From: Pseudooceanicola marinus
Lineage (GTDB): Bacteria; Pseudomonadota; Alphaproteobacteria; Rhodobacterales; Rhodobacteraceae
Reading direction: 5' to 3'
Assembly: GCF_002786295.1 (NCBI RefSeq)
Contig: NZ_PGTC01000017.1
Span: 310,001 to 374,000, forward strand
DNA: 64,000 nt
A model generated the notes under the pieces. That model was given only the letters and a program-made list of their open reading frames with translations, did no database searches and had not been told where the DNA came from. The translations under genes were made by a program, and so were the position numbers. Below, in pieces: positions 1,639 through 8,807 of the stretch. Numbering within the stretch: position 1 is the stretch's first letter; every line of letters begins with the position of its first letter.

Positions 1639-4600
1639 TTATTCGGCCGCAGCGCGGACGGGGCCGTCACGCAGCACCGCCAGATAGGCCTCACGCTGCT
1701 TGGCGGCCTTCGCCTCGTTCTCGACCTTGACCGGGCCGAAGCCGCGGATGGACAGGGGCAGCTCCGCCAAGGCGATCACCGTTTCGATCAACTCCGGGTC
1801 GTAACCCTTTGCGATTTCGCCCATATCCGCTTCGTACTGAGCCAGCAGCGCACGTTCCATCTTTCGTTCGGACAGATTGCGGAACGGGTCCAGAATTGTG
1901 CCACGGATCCCCTTCAGGTGCGCGAGCAGCCAGAAGGACCGCCCCATCCACTCGCCGAAGCTGCGCTTCACCGGGCGGCCATCCTTGCCTTTCTTCTCGA
2001 AGATCGGCGGCGCCAGATGATAGGTCATCTTGAAGTCGCCCTCGAACTGCTCAGCGGCCTTGCGACGGGTGTCGAGGTGCAGCCGGCCGACCTCATACTC
2101 GTCCTTCACCGCCAGCAGCTTGTGATAGCCCTTGGCGACGGCCTCCTTCAGCGCGGGATCCTCGAACTGGTCGACGAAGGCGCGGTATTTCTTCGCCAGG
2201 CGCTTGTTCTGGTACTTGGCCAGGTGATCGGCGCGATAGTCGATGATCTCTTCCAGGCTGCGCGGCTTGGCCTCTTCGACATGGGGCGACGCCAGGCGTT
2301 CCACCTCACGCGGGTTCAGGGCGGCCCAACGACCGATCTCGAAGGCGCGCTGGTTCTTCGGCACGGCCGCGCCGTTCAGCTCGATCGCCTGGTAGATCGC
2401 GTCATGGGTGATCGGCACAAGGCCCCTCTGCCAGGCCGCACCCAGCACCATCATGTTGGAGAAGATGGAGTCGCCCATGGTCGCCCGGGCCAGTTCGCTG
2501 GCGTCGAACAGCGCCACGTCATCCTTCAGGCGCGCTTGAAGTTGCAGCTCCAACCTGTCGGACGGAATGGCAAATTCGGTGTCGCGGGTGAAGTCGCCGG
2601 TGACGATGTCGTGGCTATTGACCACCGCGCCGGTGCGCCCGCTGCGGGTCAGGCCCAGGGTCTTCGACCCGGCGCTGACCACCAGATCGCCGCCTATCAG
2701 CGCGTCGGCCTCGCCGGTGGCAACACGGATGGCGCTGATGTCGTCGGGCTTCTCGGCGATCCGCAGGTGGATATGCACCGCGCCGCCCTTCTGGGCGAGG
2801 CCTGCCATTTCCATCATGCCGGCGCCCTTGCCGTCGATCTGCGCGGCCTGGGCCAGCACGGCGCCGATGGTCACCACGCCGGTGCCGCCGACGCCGGTGA
2901 TGACGATGTTATGGGTGCCCTTGATCGCGGGCAGCGCCGGCGCCGGCATATCCTCGGGCAGATCCAGATGGGTGCCGCTTTCCTTCTTCGGCTTGGCCCC
3001 TTCCAGGGTCACAAAGCTGGGGCAGAACCCCTTCAGACAGCTGAAGTCCTTGTTGCAGGCGGACTGGTCGATGGCCCGCTTGCGGCCCAGCTCGGTGTCC
3101 TCGGGGACGATGGCGACACAGTTCGACTGCACCCCGCAATCGCCGCAACCTTCGCAGACATCGGTGTTGATGAAGACGCGCTTGTCCGGGTCGGGGAACT
3201 GGCCACGCTTGCGCCGGCGGCGCTTCTCCGCGGCGCAGGTCTGCACGTAGATGATGGCCGAGACGCCCTCGACCTTTGTCATTTTCTCCTCGACAGACAG
3301 CAGATCGGCGCGTTCGGAAATCTCGATCCCTTGCGGGAATTGCGAAAGATCAATCTCTTCCTTCTCGTCGTGCACCACAGCGATCTTCGACAGGCCCATG
3401 GCCTTCAGCTCCTCCGCGATGCGGTATGCGGTCAGCCCGCCCTCGTTCGCCTGGCCACCGGTCATGGCGACCGCGTCGTTGAACAGGATCTTGTAGGTGA
3501 TCGTCGTCCCCGCAGCCTGGGCCGCGCGGATCGCCAGGATGCCCGAGTGGTTGTAGGTACCGTCGCCCAGGTTCTGGAACACATGATCCCGGGTGGAGAA
3601 CGGCGCTTCGCCGATCCAGTTCGCCCCCTCGGCCCCCATGTGGGTGTAGCCGGAGGTTTCGCGGTCCATCCATTGCACCATGTAGTGGCAGCCGATCCCG
3701 GCGTAGGCGCGGCTGCCCTCGGGCAGCTTGGTCGAGGTATTGTGAGGGCAGCCTGCACAGAAATAAGGCAGACGCGCCGCGATATCGGTGACATTGTCAT
3801 TCCGGCGCACTTCGCCCAGGGCCGCCATGCCGGATTTGATGCCATCGGTGTCGCGCCCTTCCTCGACGAGGATATCGCCCAGTTTCTCCGCGATTTCAAC
3901 GGGATCCAGGGCGCCCTTCGTCTGGAACAGCTCGGGCGAGCCAAGGCCGCCCTTGCGCGCACCGTAGACGCGGCGCCCCTGGCGGTCGTCGAAGATCGCT
4001 TCCTTGATCTGCACTTCCAGCAGTTTGCGCTTTTCCTCGACCACAACGATCAAATCGAGCCCTTCGGCCCATTCGCGGAAGCTGGTCATGTCCAGCGGCC
4101 AGACCTGCGCGACCTTGTAGGTGGAGATGCCCAGACGCTCGGCCTCGGGTTCGTCGATGCCCAGCAGGGTCAGGGCATGGACCACGTCGAGGTAATTCTT
4201 GCCGGCGGAGACGACACCAATCTTGGCACCCGGCTTGCCCCACATGCGGCTGTCGATGCGATTCGCCCGGGCGAAGGCCTCGGCGGCGAAGCGTTTGTAA
4301 TCGACCACCCGCGCTTCCTGCTCGGGCGGGCTGTCGCCCAGGCGGATATTCAGACCACCTTCGGGCATCTCGAAATCGCTTGGGCTGACCAGTTTCATCC
4401 GCTGCGGGTCGCCATCGACGACGGCGGTGGCCTCCACCGTGTCCTTCATCGTCTTCAGCCCCACCCAAACACCCGCATAGCGGCTGAGCGCATAGCCGTA
4501 GATACCCAGATCCAGGATCTCCTGCACGCCGGCGGGGCTGACGATGGGCATGTAGGCATCCACCAGCGCCCATTCCGACTGGTGCAGCACGGTGGAGCTT

Positions 4601-5244: not shown

Positions 5245-6159
5245 ATGGATTGGGACAAGCTCAGAATTTTCCACGCCGTGGCCGATGCGGGGTCGCTGAC
5301 CCATGCAGGGGATTCGCTGCATCTGTCGCAGTCGGCGGTATCGCGCCAGATCCGCGGGCTGGAGGAAAGCCTGAATACCACGCTGTTCCACCGCCACGCC
5401 CGCGGGCTAATCCTGACCGAACAGGGTGAACTTCTGTTCGACGCCACCCGCGCCATGGCCAAGCGGCTTGAAACCGCCACTGCGCGGATCCGCGACAGCG
5501 AGGAAGAGGTCTTTGGTGAACTGCGGGTGACAACCGCCGTGGGCTTCGGCACGCTTTGGCTGGCGCCGCGCCTGCCCAAGCTCTACGAGAAATACCCCGA
5601 CCTGAAGATCGACCTGATGCTGGAAGAGCGCGTGCTGGACCTGCCCATGCGCGAGGCCGACGTGGCCGTGCGCATGAAGGAGCCCAGCCAGGCCGACCTG
5701 ATCCGCAAGAAACTGATGTCCATCCGCATGCGCTGCTACGCCTCCGCCGATTACATCGCGCGCTATGGCAAGCCCGAGTCGCTCGATGACCTGTCGACGC
5801 ATCGCCTGATCTGCCAGACCCCCGCCGCGCCCCAGGTGGCCGCCGGCGCCTCGCTGGTAAACCAACTGATGAGCTCGGACGTGCGGTCGACCCTGACGGT
5901 CAACAACTACTTCGGCGTGCTGCAGGCTGTGATCCACAACCTCGGCATCGGCGTTCTGCCCGATTACATCGTCGAGGATTTTCCGACCCTGGAACGGATT
6001 TTCCCCGACATCGAGTCGGGCGAGGTGCCGGTCTTCCTGGCCTTCCCCGAAGAGTTGCGCCACTCGAAACGCGTCGCCGCCTTCCGCGATTTCGTCCAGG
6101 ACGAGATCATGGCACACCGCCGCACCATCCGCGAATTGCGCGACCGTGACGCAGACTGA
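5245..6159 (+). CDS. LysR-family transcriptional regulator
   Basis: The 304-residue protein has an N-terminal winged helix-turn-helix (about 1-62), with MDWDKLRIFHAVADAGS and the recognition-helix region LSQSAVSRQIRGLEESL, then a periplasmic-binding-fold effector domain (about 90-295). Regulators of this type bind T-N11-A dyads and usually control themselves and a divergent neighbour. The neighbour here is the indolepyruvate oxidoreductase gene 192 bp away. No ligand can be inferred. The ATG at 5245 was chosen because the reading begins directly with the family N-terminus. Confidence 0.9.
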   Translation: MDWDKLRIFHAVADAGSLTHAGDSLHLSQSAVSRQIRGLEESLNTTLFHRHARGLILTEQGELLFDATRAMAKRLETATARIRDSEEEVFGELRVTTAVGFGTLWLAPRLPKLYEKYPDLKIDLMLEERVLDLPMREADVAVRMKEPSQADLIRKKLMSIRMRCYASADYIARYGKPESLDDLSTHRLICQTPAAPQVAAGASLVNQLMSSDVRSTLTVNNYFGVLQAVIHNLGIGVLPDYIVEDFPTLERIFPDIESGEVPVFLAFPEELRHSKRVAAFRDFVQDEIMAHRRTIRELRDRDAD

Positions 6160-6207
6160 TCCGCGACCAAAGGCGACCGGCAATCCGCCGCCGGTTTGTC
6201 AATTTGC

Positions 6208-6244
6208 CGCCCCGCGCCCGGACAGGCCGCGGGGCGCGTCGTTT
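6208..6244 (+). terminator. terminator of the LysR gene
   Basis: A GC-rich stem (6208-6216 with 6228-6236, core GCCCCGCG/CGCGGGGC) is followed by CGTCGTTTT. It lies 50 bp past the LysR stop and isolates that gene from the small-RNA promoter downstream. Confidence 0.65.
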
Positions 6245-6334
6245 TCATTGCCTCATGCGTCGCCTGCAGGTGACAGGCGAAAGGCCCTGCAGTGTCTGCA
6301 TAGCAGCAATGAACTTGGTGCGTCACTTTGGGGC

Positions 6335-6363
6335 TTGATCGTTTCAACTCCGACCAATATCTG
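6335..6363 (+). promoter_or_regulatory. sigma70-type promoter of the candidate small RNA
   Basis: The -35 TTGATC (6335-6340) and -10 TATCTG (6358-6363) are separated by exactly 17 bp, predicting transcription from about 6370-6371. That is the first base of a long stem. The extended sequence (CTTGATC and CCAATATCT) also loosely resembles RpoH-type promoters, so stress sigma use is possible. Confidence 0.6.
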
Positions 6364-6370
6364 AGCATTC

Positions 6371-6451
6371 GATGGTGATCGCGCCTACCGGCGCATCATC
6401 GTCATACCTCCCTGTTGGACTTGGCCGGACCTTGTGTCCGGCCTTTTTTTT
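6371..6451 (+). ncRNA. candidate small RNA upstream of purL
   Basis: The predicted transcript is about 81 nt. Its 5' half forms a 14-bp hairpin: 6371-6379 pairs with 6395-6403 and 6381-6385 with 6390-6394, with a single bulged C and a UACC loop. A single-stranded linker (6404-6420) carries CCUCCCU, complementary to ribosome-binding sites. A Rho-independent terminator (6423-6451) ends it with eight U. This architecture of stem, unpaired C-rich seed and terminator is typical of trans-acting sRNAs and resembles the CCUCCUCCC-loop sRNAs known in Rhodobacter. The start codon of purL is 190 bp downstream, beyond the terminator, so this is not simply the purL leader. I could not match it to a named sRNA. 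Confidence 0.65.
6423..6451 (+). terminator. Rho-independent terminator of the candidate small RNA
   Basis: A perfect 8-bp stem GGCCGGAC/GTCCGGCC (6423-6430 with 6436-6443, loop CTTGT) is followed by eight T (6444-6451). It is one of the strongest intrinsic terminators in the window, and no protein gene ends immediately before it. Confidence 0.85.
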
Positions 6452-6641
6452 GCGCCAGCCCCGAAAGGCTCCGGCAAGCACCGCGTCCACCGTCCACGAA
6501 TGGCACAAGCGCCCGGTCCCTCGCGTCGCCCCCGGGCCTGCGCGCGCCATGCACAACGGGCCGCGCGAAATCCCGCAGCCCCCCTTCCCCAAAGCCGCAC
6601 AGTCGCGTAAATCCCCCCCAACGTCACCTAGGGGGACCAGC

Positions 6642-8807
6642 ATGCAAGAGCCGGACATCACCGAAGACCTGATCGCAAGCCACGGCATCAACGACGAGGA
6701 ATATGCCGAGATCCTGCGGATCCTGAACCGTGCCCCCACCTTCACCGAGTTGGGCATCTTTTCGGCCATGTGGAACGAACACTGTTCCTACAAGTCGTCG
6801 AAGAAATGGCTGCGCACCCTGCCGACCGAAGGCCCCCAGGTGATCTGCGGCCCCGGCGAAAACGCCGGCGTGGTCGACATCGGCGATGGCCAGGCCGTCA
6901 TCTTCAAGATGGAAAGCCACAACCACCCCTCCTACATCGAACCTTATCAGGGCGCGGCCACTGGCGTGGGTGGCATCCTGCGGGACGTCTTCACCATGGG
7001 CGCGCGGCCGATCGCGGCGATGAACTCGCTGTCGTTCGGTGAGAAGGACCACCCGAAGACCCGACAGCTGGTGCATGGCGTCGTCGAAGGTGTCGGCGGC
7101 TACGGCAACTGTTTCGGCGTGCCCACCGTGGGCGGCGAGGTCCGCTTCGATCCGGCGTATAACGGCAACTGCCTGGTGAACGCCTTTGCCGCCGGCCTGG
7201 CGGATACCGACAAGATCTTCTACTCCGCCGCCTCCGGTGTCGGCATGCCGGTGGTCTACCTCGGCGCGAAAACCGGGCGCGACGGCGTCGGCGGCGCCAC
7301 CATGGCCTCGGCCGAGTTCGACGAGACCATCGAGGAGAAGCGGCCCACCGTCCAGGTCGGCGACCCCTTCACCGAAAAGCGCCTGATGGAAGCCTGCATG
7401 GAACTGATGCAGACCGGCGCCGTGATCTCGATCCAGGACATGGGCGCGGCGGGCCTCACCTGCTCGGCCGTGGAAATGGGCGACAAGGGCGGTCTGGGCA
7501 TCCGGCTGAACCTGGACGACGTGCCGCAGCGCGAACCCAACATGACCGCCTACGAGATGATGCTGTCGGAAAGCCAGGAGCGGATGCTCATGGTGCTCGA
7601 CCCCGCGAAGGAGGCCGAGGCGCGCGCCGTCTTCGACAAGTGGGACCTCGACTTCGCCATCGTGGGCGAAACCATCGACGAGGACCGCTTCGAGATCATC
7701 CACGGCGGCAAGGTCTGGGCCGATGTGCCGCTGTCGAAACTGTCCTCCTCGGCGCCCGAGTACGACCGCCCTCACGTGGAGACCCCGGCGGCCGAGCCGC
7801 TGACGGATGAGGACATCCCCTCGGTCGATCCCATCGACGGGCTGAAGGCGCTGATCTCCTCGCCCAACTACTGCTCGCGCCAGTGGGTCTATGAACAATA
7901 CGACAGCATGGTCATGGCCGACACCGCGCGCGGCCCGGGCTTCGGCTCCGGCCTCTTGCGCGTGCATGGCACCGACAAGCTTCTGGCCTTCACATCCGAC
8001 GTGACGCCCCGCTACGTGAAGGCGAACCCGATCGAGGGCGGCAAGCAGGCGGTGGCCGAGGCCTACCGCAACCTGACCGCCTCGGGCGCGAAACCGCTGG
8101 CCTCCACCGACAACCTGAACTTCGGCAATCCCGAGAAGCCGGAAATCATGGGCCAGTTCGTCGGCGCCCTGCAGGGGATCGGAGAGGCCTGCCGCGTGCT
8201 GGACATGCCCATCGTGTCGGGCAACGTGTCGCTTTACAACGAAACCGACGGCTCGGGCATCCTGCCCACGCCGACCATCGGCGCGGTCGGGCTGATCAAA
8301 TCCTCCGACCATGCGATCATCGGTCATGCGCGCGAGGGTCATGTCGCCCTGCTGATCGGCGACACGGTCGGTCACTTGGGCCAGTCCGCCCTGCTGGCCG
8401 AGGTCTTCAACCGGACCGACGGCGATGCCCCCCATGTCGATCTGGAGGCCGAGAAGCGCAACGGCGATTTCATCCGCGACAACACCGACTGGATCAAGGT
8501 CTGCACCGACCTCAGCGATGGTGGCCTGGCCCTGGCGGCCTTCGAGATGGCCGAAGCGGCCGGCGTCGGCGTGACCCTGGACGAGACCGACCAGCGCCAG
8601 CTGTTCGGCGAGGACCAGGCGCGCTACCTCGTGGCCTGCAACTTCGACCAGGCCGAGGCGCTGATGGTCAACGCGGGCAAGGCGGGTGTCACCGTGACGA
8701 CGGTGGGCAAGTTCGGCGGCGACCAGGTGACCATAGGCGGCGTCTCCGCGCCCCTGGCGGAGCTGTCGGCGCTCTACCGCGGCGCCTTCGAAGAGCACTT
8801 CGGCTAA
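6642..8807 (+). CDS. purL: phosphoribosylformylglycinamidine synthase subunit PurL
   Basis: PurL converts FGAR plus glutamine-derived ammonia and ATP to FGAM, the fourth step of de novo purine synthesis. At 721 residues it is the small form, which needs PurS and PurQ (not in this window) as partners. Family motifs are seen early: [20 protein letters not shown] and ESHNHPS, the latter followed by the glycine-rich [12 protein letters not shown]. Two AIR-synthase-type halves follow. The ATG at 6642 is preceded by GGGGGAC and begins the conserved region ([11 protein letters not shown]); longer in-frame openings run back through the small-RNA region and lack homologous sequence. A strong hairpin follows the stop. 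Confidence 0.96.

Follow-up and report, generated by a model that had tools for sequence, protein, structure and literature searches.

SorY (formerly RSs1543) of Rhodobacter sphaeroides is reported to be an Hfq-bound small RNA that depends on RpoHI/RpoHII and is induced by singlet oxygen, and it acts on the mRNA of takP, a malate or metabolite transporter. It has its own promoter, and its transcription start was mapped to position 1,632,642 (PMC6238624). SorX of the same species is described as following an OmpR-type gene (PMC6238624). In rhizobia and relatives, the LysR-type regulator LsrB/VtlR is described as the activator of AbcR1, VrsA and NfeR1 (PMC7486931, PMC8844928, PMC10746234). AbcR2 of S. 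meliloti is presented with an RpoH1-type promoter and without the LsrB motif (PMC8844928), and linkage of trxB to lsrB is given as the rule in Rhizobiales (PMC11975290).

The small RNA gene between lysR and purL

The window, i.e. the whole stretch of 64,000 nucleotides of Pseudooceanicola marinus DNA that was analyzed, carries a small RNA gene with the following features and neighbors.

5245..6159, + strand: LysR-type regulator, LsrB/VtlR ortholog and candidate activator of SorY (Pfam HTH_1 and LysR_substrate)
6288..6311, + strand: LsrB-like operator, TGCA-N6-GCATAGCAGCAATG, about -78 to -55 from the extrapolated start
6334..6339, + strand: -35 element CTTGAT (CTTG in 79/85 homologs)
6356..6362, + strand: -10 element AATATCT (family consensus CCTANNT, from the promoter alignment)
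6366..6451, + strand: small RNA gene, SorY ortholog (RF02651 match; start extrapolated from R. sphaeroides)
6371..6403, + strand: 5' hairpin of 14 pairs with one bulge (minimum-energy fold and family comparison)
6406..6422, + strand: seed ACCTCCCTGTTGGACTT, anti-Shine-Dalgarno (CCTCCCTGTTGGACT in 90/90 family matches)
6423..6451, + strand: intrinsic terminator, 8-bp stem (6423-6443) and eight T (6444-6451)
6642..8807, + strand: purL, downstream neighbor outside the SorY unit (NCBIfam PurL, 977.7 bits)

The Rfam model of SorY (RF02651) aligned with this RNA over its full length, in sequence and structure (model positions 1-83 with 6369-6450; 66.1 bits, E 1.2e-12), at a score below the curated cut-off of 111 bits. 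SorY matches at E<=0.001 were found in 279 of 295 Rhodobacteraceae genomes, and only one of the 295 passed the curated cut-off; our claim is therefore one of gene orthology, without an Rfam gathering-level match. The sole family genome above the cut-off (G051) has its match at 1,632,645, and since this agrees with the mapped start of SorY, we took it as R. sphaeroides 2.4.1. The mapped start lies 3 nt before the model start, which corresponds to about position 6366 in the window; a first-pass annotation of this DNA had predicted the start at 6370-6371, which this carry-over from R. sphaeroides (PMC6238624) moves upstream. The gene order lysR-SorY-purL is common to the window and R. sphaeroides, and the genes flanking SorY are 78.8% (lysR) and 82.2% (purL) identical between the two. 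A search of plasmids for SorY retrieved four records with partial matches, none of them reaching 80% coverage of the RNA.

Judged by alignment and gene order, the small RNA gene of the window is the ortholog of SorY, a known stress-response type. The first-pass annotation had called a trans-acting small RNA with an anti-Shine-Dalgarno linker, distinct from purL, and had found no named family for it. The evidence favors this call, and the orthology supplies the missing name.

The adjacent LysR regulator, the operator-like dyad and the promoter

Conservation was evaluated in the 90 best-scoring family matches, a non-random sample from 89 genomes (G070 is represented twice). In 85 of these 90, a LysR gene precedes the RNA on the same strand, the exceptions being L010, L014, L068, L084 and L111, of which L014 starts close to a contig end. 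The LysR gene ends within 400 nt of the seed, and is thereby directly adjacent, in 82 of the 90, while a gap of about 1 kb is found in L011, L086 and L098. Downstream, purL was detected in 52 of the 90, having been sought only within the sequence stretch at hand. Both the LysR gene and the operator upstream of SorY had been overlooked in the first-pass annotation.

By several searches, this regulator is the ortholog of LsrB/VtlR. With a trxB-linked LysR of Bradyrhizobium japonicum as the query, the window LysR was the best match in its genome (266.8 bits, next 141.7), and the LysR beside SorY was the best match in R. sphaeroides (259.8 bits, next 112.5). The window LysR found matches at E<=1e-60 in 77 of 142 genomes of the class, one per genome. 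We retained the best LysR matches outside Rhodobacteraceae, one per family, as a set of 28 class loci that is not a random draw; a thioredoxin-reductase CxxCDG motif lies upstream of LysR in 24 of these 28 and in 74 of 80 named loci, mostly from Hyphomicrobiales. The window LysR has no trxB operon beside it, its upstream gene, on the opposite strand, being an indolepyruvate ferredoxin oxidoreductase. Going by these gene orders, the link to SorY replaces the trxB link of LsrB in Rhodobacteraceae. The predicted occurrence of LsrB beyond Rhizobiales contradicts PMC11975290, where LsrB was called unique to Rhizobiales in 2025 from a few chosen species. A broader distribution of the regulator is in itself no novelty, because VtlR has been called conserved in Alphaproteobacteria (PMC7486931) and the AbcR1 region has been noted to be highly syntenic across alphaproteobacteria (PMC8844928). 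Two cysteines of the window LysR were considered as candidate redox residues; 60 of 84 relatives retain Cys190, and 2 of 83 retain Cys164.

A motif search in the 85 SorY upstream regions returned one strong motif of 18.8 bits, YGCATRGCGGNNATGC, whose position relative to the seed is -113 to -92 in 84 regions and -121 in the remaining one. The dyad GCATRGC-N-GNNATGC, found in the 85 upstream regions, lies at about -65, and its spacing to the RNA is nearly constant, unlike that to the LysR gene; in R. sphaeroides, relative to the mapped start, the GCAT-to-T stretch of the operator spans about -71 to -57. Matches to a pattern derived from the motif were present in 52 of the 85 regions, whereas 200 shuffled sets gave 8.2 on average and never more than 16. 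Scored in-sample, all 85 regions reach at least 8 bits, with 57 sites elsewhere in 523,860 positions. Two published patterns, which were not fitted here, were also searched. TGCA-N6-GCAT, given as the LsrB motif of NfeR1 (PMC10746234), occurs in 52 of the 85 SorY regions compared with 5 of 594 control windows, and its copy in the window lies at 6288-6301. When one base of the LsrB consensus of PMC8844928 is relaxed, the resulting GCAT-N3-NG-N3-T occurs in 75 of the 85 compared with 38 of the 594; the strict form, GCAT-N3-TG-N3-T, occurs in only 8 of the 85. The dyad upstream of SorY resembles the published LsrB operator and is a candidate site for it. Genome-wide, the operator pattern GCATRNCNGNNATG was found at 46 places, compared with none for the reversed pattern; no regulon is claimed from this count. 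Scores of at least 8 bits before lysR itself were reached in just 16 of 80 loci, so autoregulation of lysR is not general.

Between the dyad and the RNA, CTTG is found where expected in 79 of the 85 upstream regions, and the consensus anchored on it reads CTTGA-N17-CCTANNT. The consensus sequences published for S. meliloti, CTTGAA-N16-CCTATAT for RpoH1 and CTTGAC-N17-CTATAT for RpoD (PMC8844928), differ little. RpoH1 fits the SorY promoters better, because a C precedes CTA in 64 of the 79 regions and only 8 of the 79 have C as base 6 of the -35 element. The promoter of the window, CTTGAT-N16-AATATCT, has A A as the leading pair of its -10 element where the consensus has C C. A scan for sigma-70 promoters returned none. 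The SorY promoter appears closer to the RpoH than to the sigma-70 pattern and would be an RpoH-type promoter of the RNA's own. The elements read in the first-pass annotation (TTGATC at 6335-6340, 17 nt, TATCTG at 6358-6363, then the stem and the terminator) are all found on inspection of the sequence; the ordinary promoter type assigned to them gives way to the RpoH pattern.

Gene order and dyad together suggest that the neighboring regulator switches SorY on, and that the pair is old and found in many alphaproteobacteria. SorY could instead be under RpoH sigma factors alone, with the dyad serving another factor and the LysR neighbor reflecting passive gene order; the literature credits SorY to RpoHI/RpoHII and, in the text available, names no LysR, and the rarity of the strict LsrB consensus in the SorY regions also speaks for this reading. 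We regard it as unlikely. The spacing of the dyad is near-fixed relative to the RNA and not to the LysR gene, and the dyad equals, except at its center, the one found after LsrB in Hyphomicrobiales. LysR also stays beside SorY more often than purL does (85 versus 52 of 90, purL having been sought in a limited stretch), and SorX, which has no adjacent LysR, has no operator site (1.4 bits).

Fold, family conservation and paralogs of the RNA

The 81-nt sequence folds at -39.9 kcal/mol, compared with -20.5 kcal/mol for shuffles (z -6.17; 0 of 200 shuffles as good). The linker between hairpin and terminator (6404-6422) contains CCTCCC; it had been described as 17 nt long and unpaired in the first-pass annotation, but measures 19 nt, and the minimum-energy fold adds a weak 2-bp CC/GG pairing to it. 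In 5600-7000 this terminator is the sole terminator-like site, and since shuffles yield 0.9 on average, it is not beyond chance when taken alone.

Across the 90 best family matches, the seed CCUCCCUGUUGGACU is present throughout, and the base preceding CCTCCCTGTTGGACT is A in 89; seeds were located by the string CCTCCCTGT, and only the remainder of CCTCCCTGTTGGACT is an independent observation. The terminator, like the seed, is kept in all 90. The sequence of the 5' stem varies widely in an alignment of 42 sequences, and a 5' hairpin of 9-17 pairs is predicted in all 85 SorY loci beside LysR, the 5' segment having a median z of -2.98 relative to its own shuffles (75 of 85 below -2). Contrary to a simple picture of a free linker, CCUCCC is wholly unpaired in just 2 of the 85 minimum-energy folds. 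In 67 it pairs with downstream bases (among the folds inspected, usually a CC with a nearby GG), and in 16 the 5' segment takes up some of its bases. Covariation was evaluated in 25 sequences picked by eye as alignable, in which 86.4% of cells pair, compared with 38.9-44.9% when partners were slid, and the covariation score exceeded all 500 shuffles. Two of the five covariation measures were unremarkable in this group, namely pairs changed on both sides and further pair types, for which 83 and 110 of 500 shuffles scored as high. The first-pass annotation had proposed comparing stem, linker and terminator across relatives as a check, and the conserved seed, terminator and hairpin and the covariation in the alignable group bear it out.

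Its statement that the RNA contains no open frame is incorrect, as the ATG at 6372 starts an open frame that continues into purL. This frame, together with the common strand of lysR and purL, would be compatible with there being no separate RNA at all, but rather the terminator and 3' end of an extended lysR transcript, or a purL leader. Of the 37 loci with purL within 400 nt of the seed (window counted), only 8 keep the frame open across the RNA, and it is thus no conserved coding. The seed is conserved, a promoter conserved in 79 of 85 regions stands between lysR and the RNA, and SorY has its own promoter in R. sphaeroides (PMC6238624), which makes a lysR tail or purL leader very improbable. 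The conserved promoter likewise upholds the earlier view that the terminator does not merely end a longer upstream RNA; the purL ATG was also correctly placed 190 bp beyond it.

A SorX-type RNA at this locus is more improbable still, for although the Rfam SorX model (RF02784) scores 55.2 bits here, above its cut-off of 46.6, it does so through the common seed and terminator, with letters at 56 of 73 positions and gaps at those of the SorX 5' hairpin, whereas contig C15 carries a better SorX (74 bits) after a frame that by eye ends like an OmpR-type regulator, as in R. sphaeroides (PMC6238624).

A third sibling RNA (G000:C17:209154-209231; L005, 1501-1578) carries ACTTCCTCCCTGTCAGACTGG before a terminator. 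It scores 29.1 bits with the SorX model and 5.5 bits for the operator, and by eye its neighbors include neither a LysR nor an OmpR-type gene. Its assignment to alpha-r8 by neighborhood was rejected, the neighbors being, by eye, unlike N-formylglutamate amidohydrolase.

SorY orthology, RNA structure, gene order and the conservation of promoter and operator were established by computation.

Related RNAs, putative targets and comparison with known systems

A scan at the Rfam gathering thresholds gave no match in the 28 LysR loci of other families and one locus of the same family, so the RNA of the class loci was located by visual inspection and pattern matching. Within 520 nt downstream of LysR, 19 of the 28 class loci contain CCTCCCTG with a T run behind it, and windows upstream of LysR in the same 28 loci, on both strands, contained no such combination. 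The usual 3' end of the class RNA is ACGTCTCCCAGACGTGAAGCCTCCCTGTTNNACT-terminator. In the loci L037-L064, directly 3' of LysR, a CUCCCA hairpin often precedes the CCUCCCUGUU seed. Below their cut-offs, the SorX model matched 7 of 8 class loci tested (35.3-44.1 bits), and the SorY model gave weak matches in 5 of 8 (E 0.0012 to 0.91).

We built a covariance model from the 19 class RNAs, with no Rhodobacteraceae included. Its only significant match in the 64 kb is the SorY of the window, at 38.6 bits (E 4.2e-8), followed by one with an E of 0.79. Searched against 41 further loci from this genome and the family, out of more than 90, it matched all 38 SorY-type loci (16.5-33.2 bits, 33 of them at E below 0.005; R. 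sphaeroides 23.5), as well as SorX (28.2), the third sibling (30.9) and two other places (15.0 and 14.6 bits). Because it matches paralogs too, the model attests kinship of the group, within which SorY is set apart by its gene place. In the reverse search, a SorY model found the class RNA in 9 of the 28 class loci at E below 1e-4. The operator of the class loci reads, in-sample, GCCATGC-N6..8-GCATGGC. One class locus, L043, has three SorY-model matches in a row after LysR (2593-2682, 2879-2968 and 3062-3180; 15.7, 23.7 and 18.7 bits) and a second operator-like site at +1480; these are perhaps tandem copies like AbcR1/AbcR2.

In Hyphomicrobiales, the strict LsrB consensus was found within 300 nt after LysR in 34 of 78 loci, compared with 2 among 156 windows taken within lysR. 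Of 14 such sites inspected, several read GCATGGCTGNCATGC, which differs from the 15-bp dyad of SorY chiefly at the center. By eye, the RNA after LsrB is AbcR-like in this order. In 23 of the 24 Hyphomicrobiales loci searched, the class model scored no higher than 17.9 bits (E 0.016), the 24th, L233, being set aside as it has the downstream sequence of the training locus L038; the ar15 model gave no match in these loci. Searching 115 class genomes with ar15 gave no match, and no control gave one either, so this does not amount to absence. Place, operator and regulator suggest common descent of SorY and AbcR, a descent that the sequence does not show, as neither the ar15 nor the class model matches the Hyphomicrobiales RNA well. 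Close to LsrB in L156 (Rhizobium sp. Q54), a terC RNA (RF03067) was found at 3921-3983 on the - strand (52.2 bits).

Candidate targets were sought among transporter genes. In R. sphaeroides, the seed is complementary, counted by eye, at 12 of 14 positions to GTCCACAAGGGAGG, located before gene L241. The protein encoded by L241 matches PDB 2hzk, deposited as SmoM (E 1e-198), which we take to be TakP. The closest TakP-like protein in the genome of the window is 35% identical to R. sphaeroides TakP, and its gene has a predicted duplex with SorY of -21.8 kcal/mol, second of 30 in a ranking from which L241 was left out owing to a miscalled start; other TRAP proteins may be closer to TakP by function. 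AGGGAGG was found before the chosen start of 7 of 21 TRAP binding-protein genes, compared with 3 of 133 others (Fisher p 3e-5), where TRAP starts were picked by Shine-Dalgarno match, which favors TRAP, and the other genes were permitted every in-frame start within their first 40%, which favors the background. The count covers 21 of the 22 TRAP binding-protein genes of this genome (L236-L264) and relies on crude gene calls. SorY, SorX and the third sibling may have the mRNAs of TRAP binding proteins as common targets.

We propose that a SorY RNA of about 85 nt would be made from its own RpoH-type promoter and ended by its own terminator. The linker ACCUCCCUGUUGGACUU would pair with ribosome-binding sites of target mRNAs, those of transporters included, and this pairing would lower their translation or stability, probably with Hfq. 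The adjacent LsrB/VtlR-type LysR would probably activate SorY through the dyad near -65, and LsrB input and stress sigma factors would converge on the single SorY promoter. Transcription of SorY in P. marinus, its activation by LysR, the signal sensed and the local targets are inferred here from sequence. Taken as a whole, from the SorY gene with its RpoH-type promoter and own terminator to the seed acting on ribosome sites and the activation by LysR, we hold this explanation with good confidence. Points that weigh against it are the SorY score below the Rfam cut-off, the rarity of the strict LsrB consensus, the 46 copies of the bare operator pattern in this genome, the S. meliloti AbcR2 promoter of RpoH1 type that lacks an LsrB motif, the mostly paired seed and the low identity of the closest TakP-like protein. 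With somewhat less assurance, we favor a broader view in which LsrB/VtlR and a downstream anti-Shine-Dalgarno small RNA would form an ancestral alphaproteobacterial module. SorY would be its Rhodobacteraceae form and, by place and control, the counterpart of AbcR; elsewhere a family absent from Rfam would follow LsrB, SorX and the RNA at C17:209154 would be paralogs that left, and the LsrB and RpoH inputs, split between AbcR1 and AbcR2 in S. meliloti, would be merged in SorY.

New here are the control and the ancestry of SorY, that is, the adjoining LsrB ortholog, the LsrB-like operator, the RpoH-type promoter and the kindred RNAs after LsrB. This would join two separate literatures, on the photo-oxidative-stress small RNAs of Rhodobacter and on the LsrB/VtlR-AbcR circuit of rhizobia and relatives. 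In the open-licence literature, we found no paper treating SorX with MmgR and no small RNA paper treating AbcR with SorY, and a search for SorY, LysR and sphaeroides returned only a co-mention in reference lists or unrelated subjects. If control by LsrB is true, SorY in R. sphaeroides should fall without the adjacent lysR. In many other families, a small RNA unlisted in Rfam would likewise stand beside LsrB.

Among known systems, alpha-r8 (MmgR, SisA-D; RF00519) shares with SorY a single-stranded CUCCCU before the terminator and several sibling copies per genome, but differs in its core, UUUCCUCCCU, and in mostly adjoining an N-formylglutamate amidohydrolase gene; the alpha-r8/suhB model scored 23.9 bits at the window RNA, below its cut-off of 41, and had no match genome-wide at E<=0.001. 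NfeR1 (alpha-r14) of S. meliloti also has anti-Shine-Dalgarno motifs and is described as LsrB-activated via TGCA-N6-GCAT at about -72 to -60, but unlike SorY has three hairpins with CCUCCUCCC loops and is Hfq-independent (PMC10746234). AbcR1/AbcR2 (alpha-r15, RF02345) of Rhizobiales are, like SorY, anti-Shine-Dalgarno RNAs beside lsrB, and the likeness extends to the LsrB-type operator of AbcR1 and the RpoH-type promoter of AbcR2. The S. meliloti AbcR RNAs are unlike SorY in having three hairpins and a UCCUCCC 5' loop, and the ar15 model matched neither the window, even at E values of up to 10, nor the loci tested. Since SorY lies, as AbcR does, beside lsrB with an LsrB-like operator, it sits like AbcR and may work like it, without being filed as AbcR. 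SorX has the same seed and terminator type as the window RNA, which in contrast lacks the SorX 5' hairpin, lies outside an ompR-type 3' UTR, has its own promoter and follows a LysR gene. SorY of R. sphaeroides differs from the window RNA in its stem and loop sequences, as reflected in the 66.1 bits against a cut-off of 111, but is like it in the full-length alignment, the seed, the 5' hairpin and the terminator, as well as in the order lysR-SorY-purL and the RpoH-like promoter.
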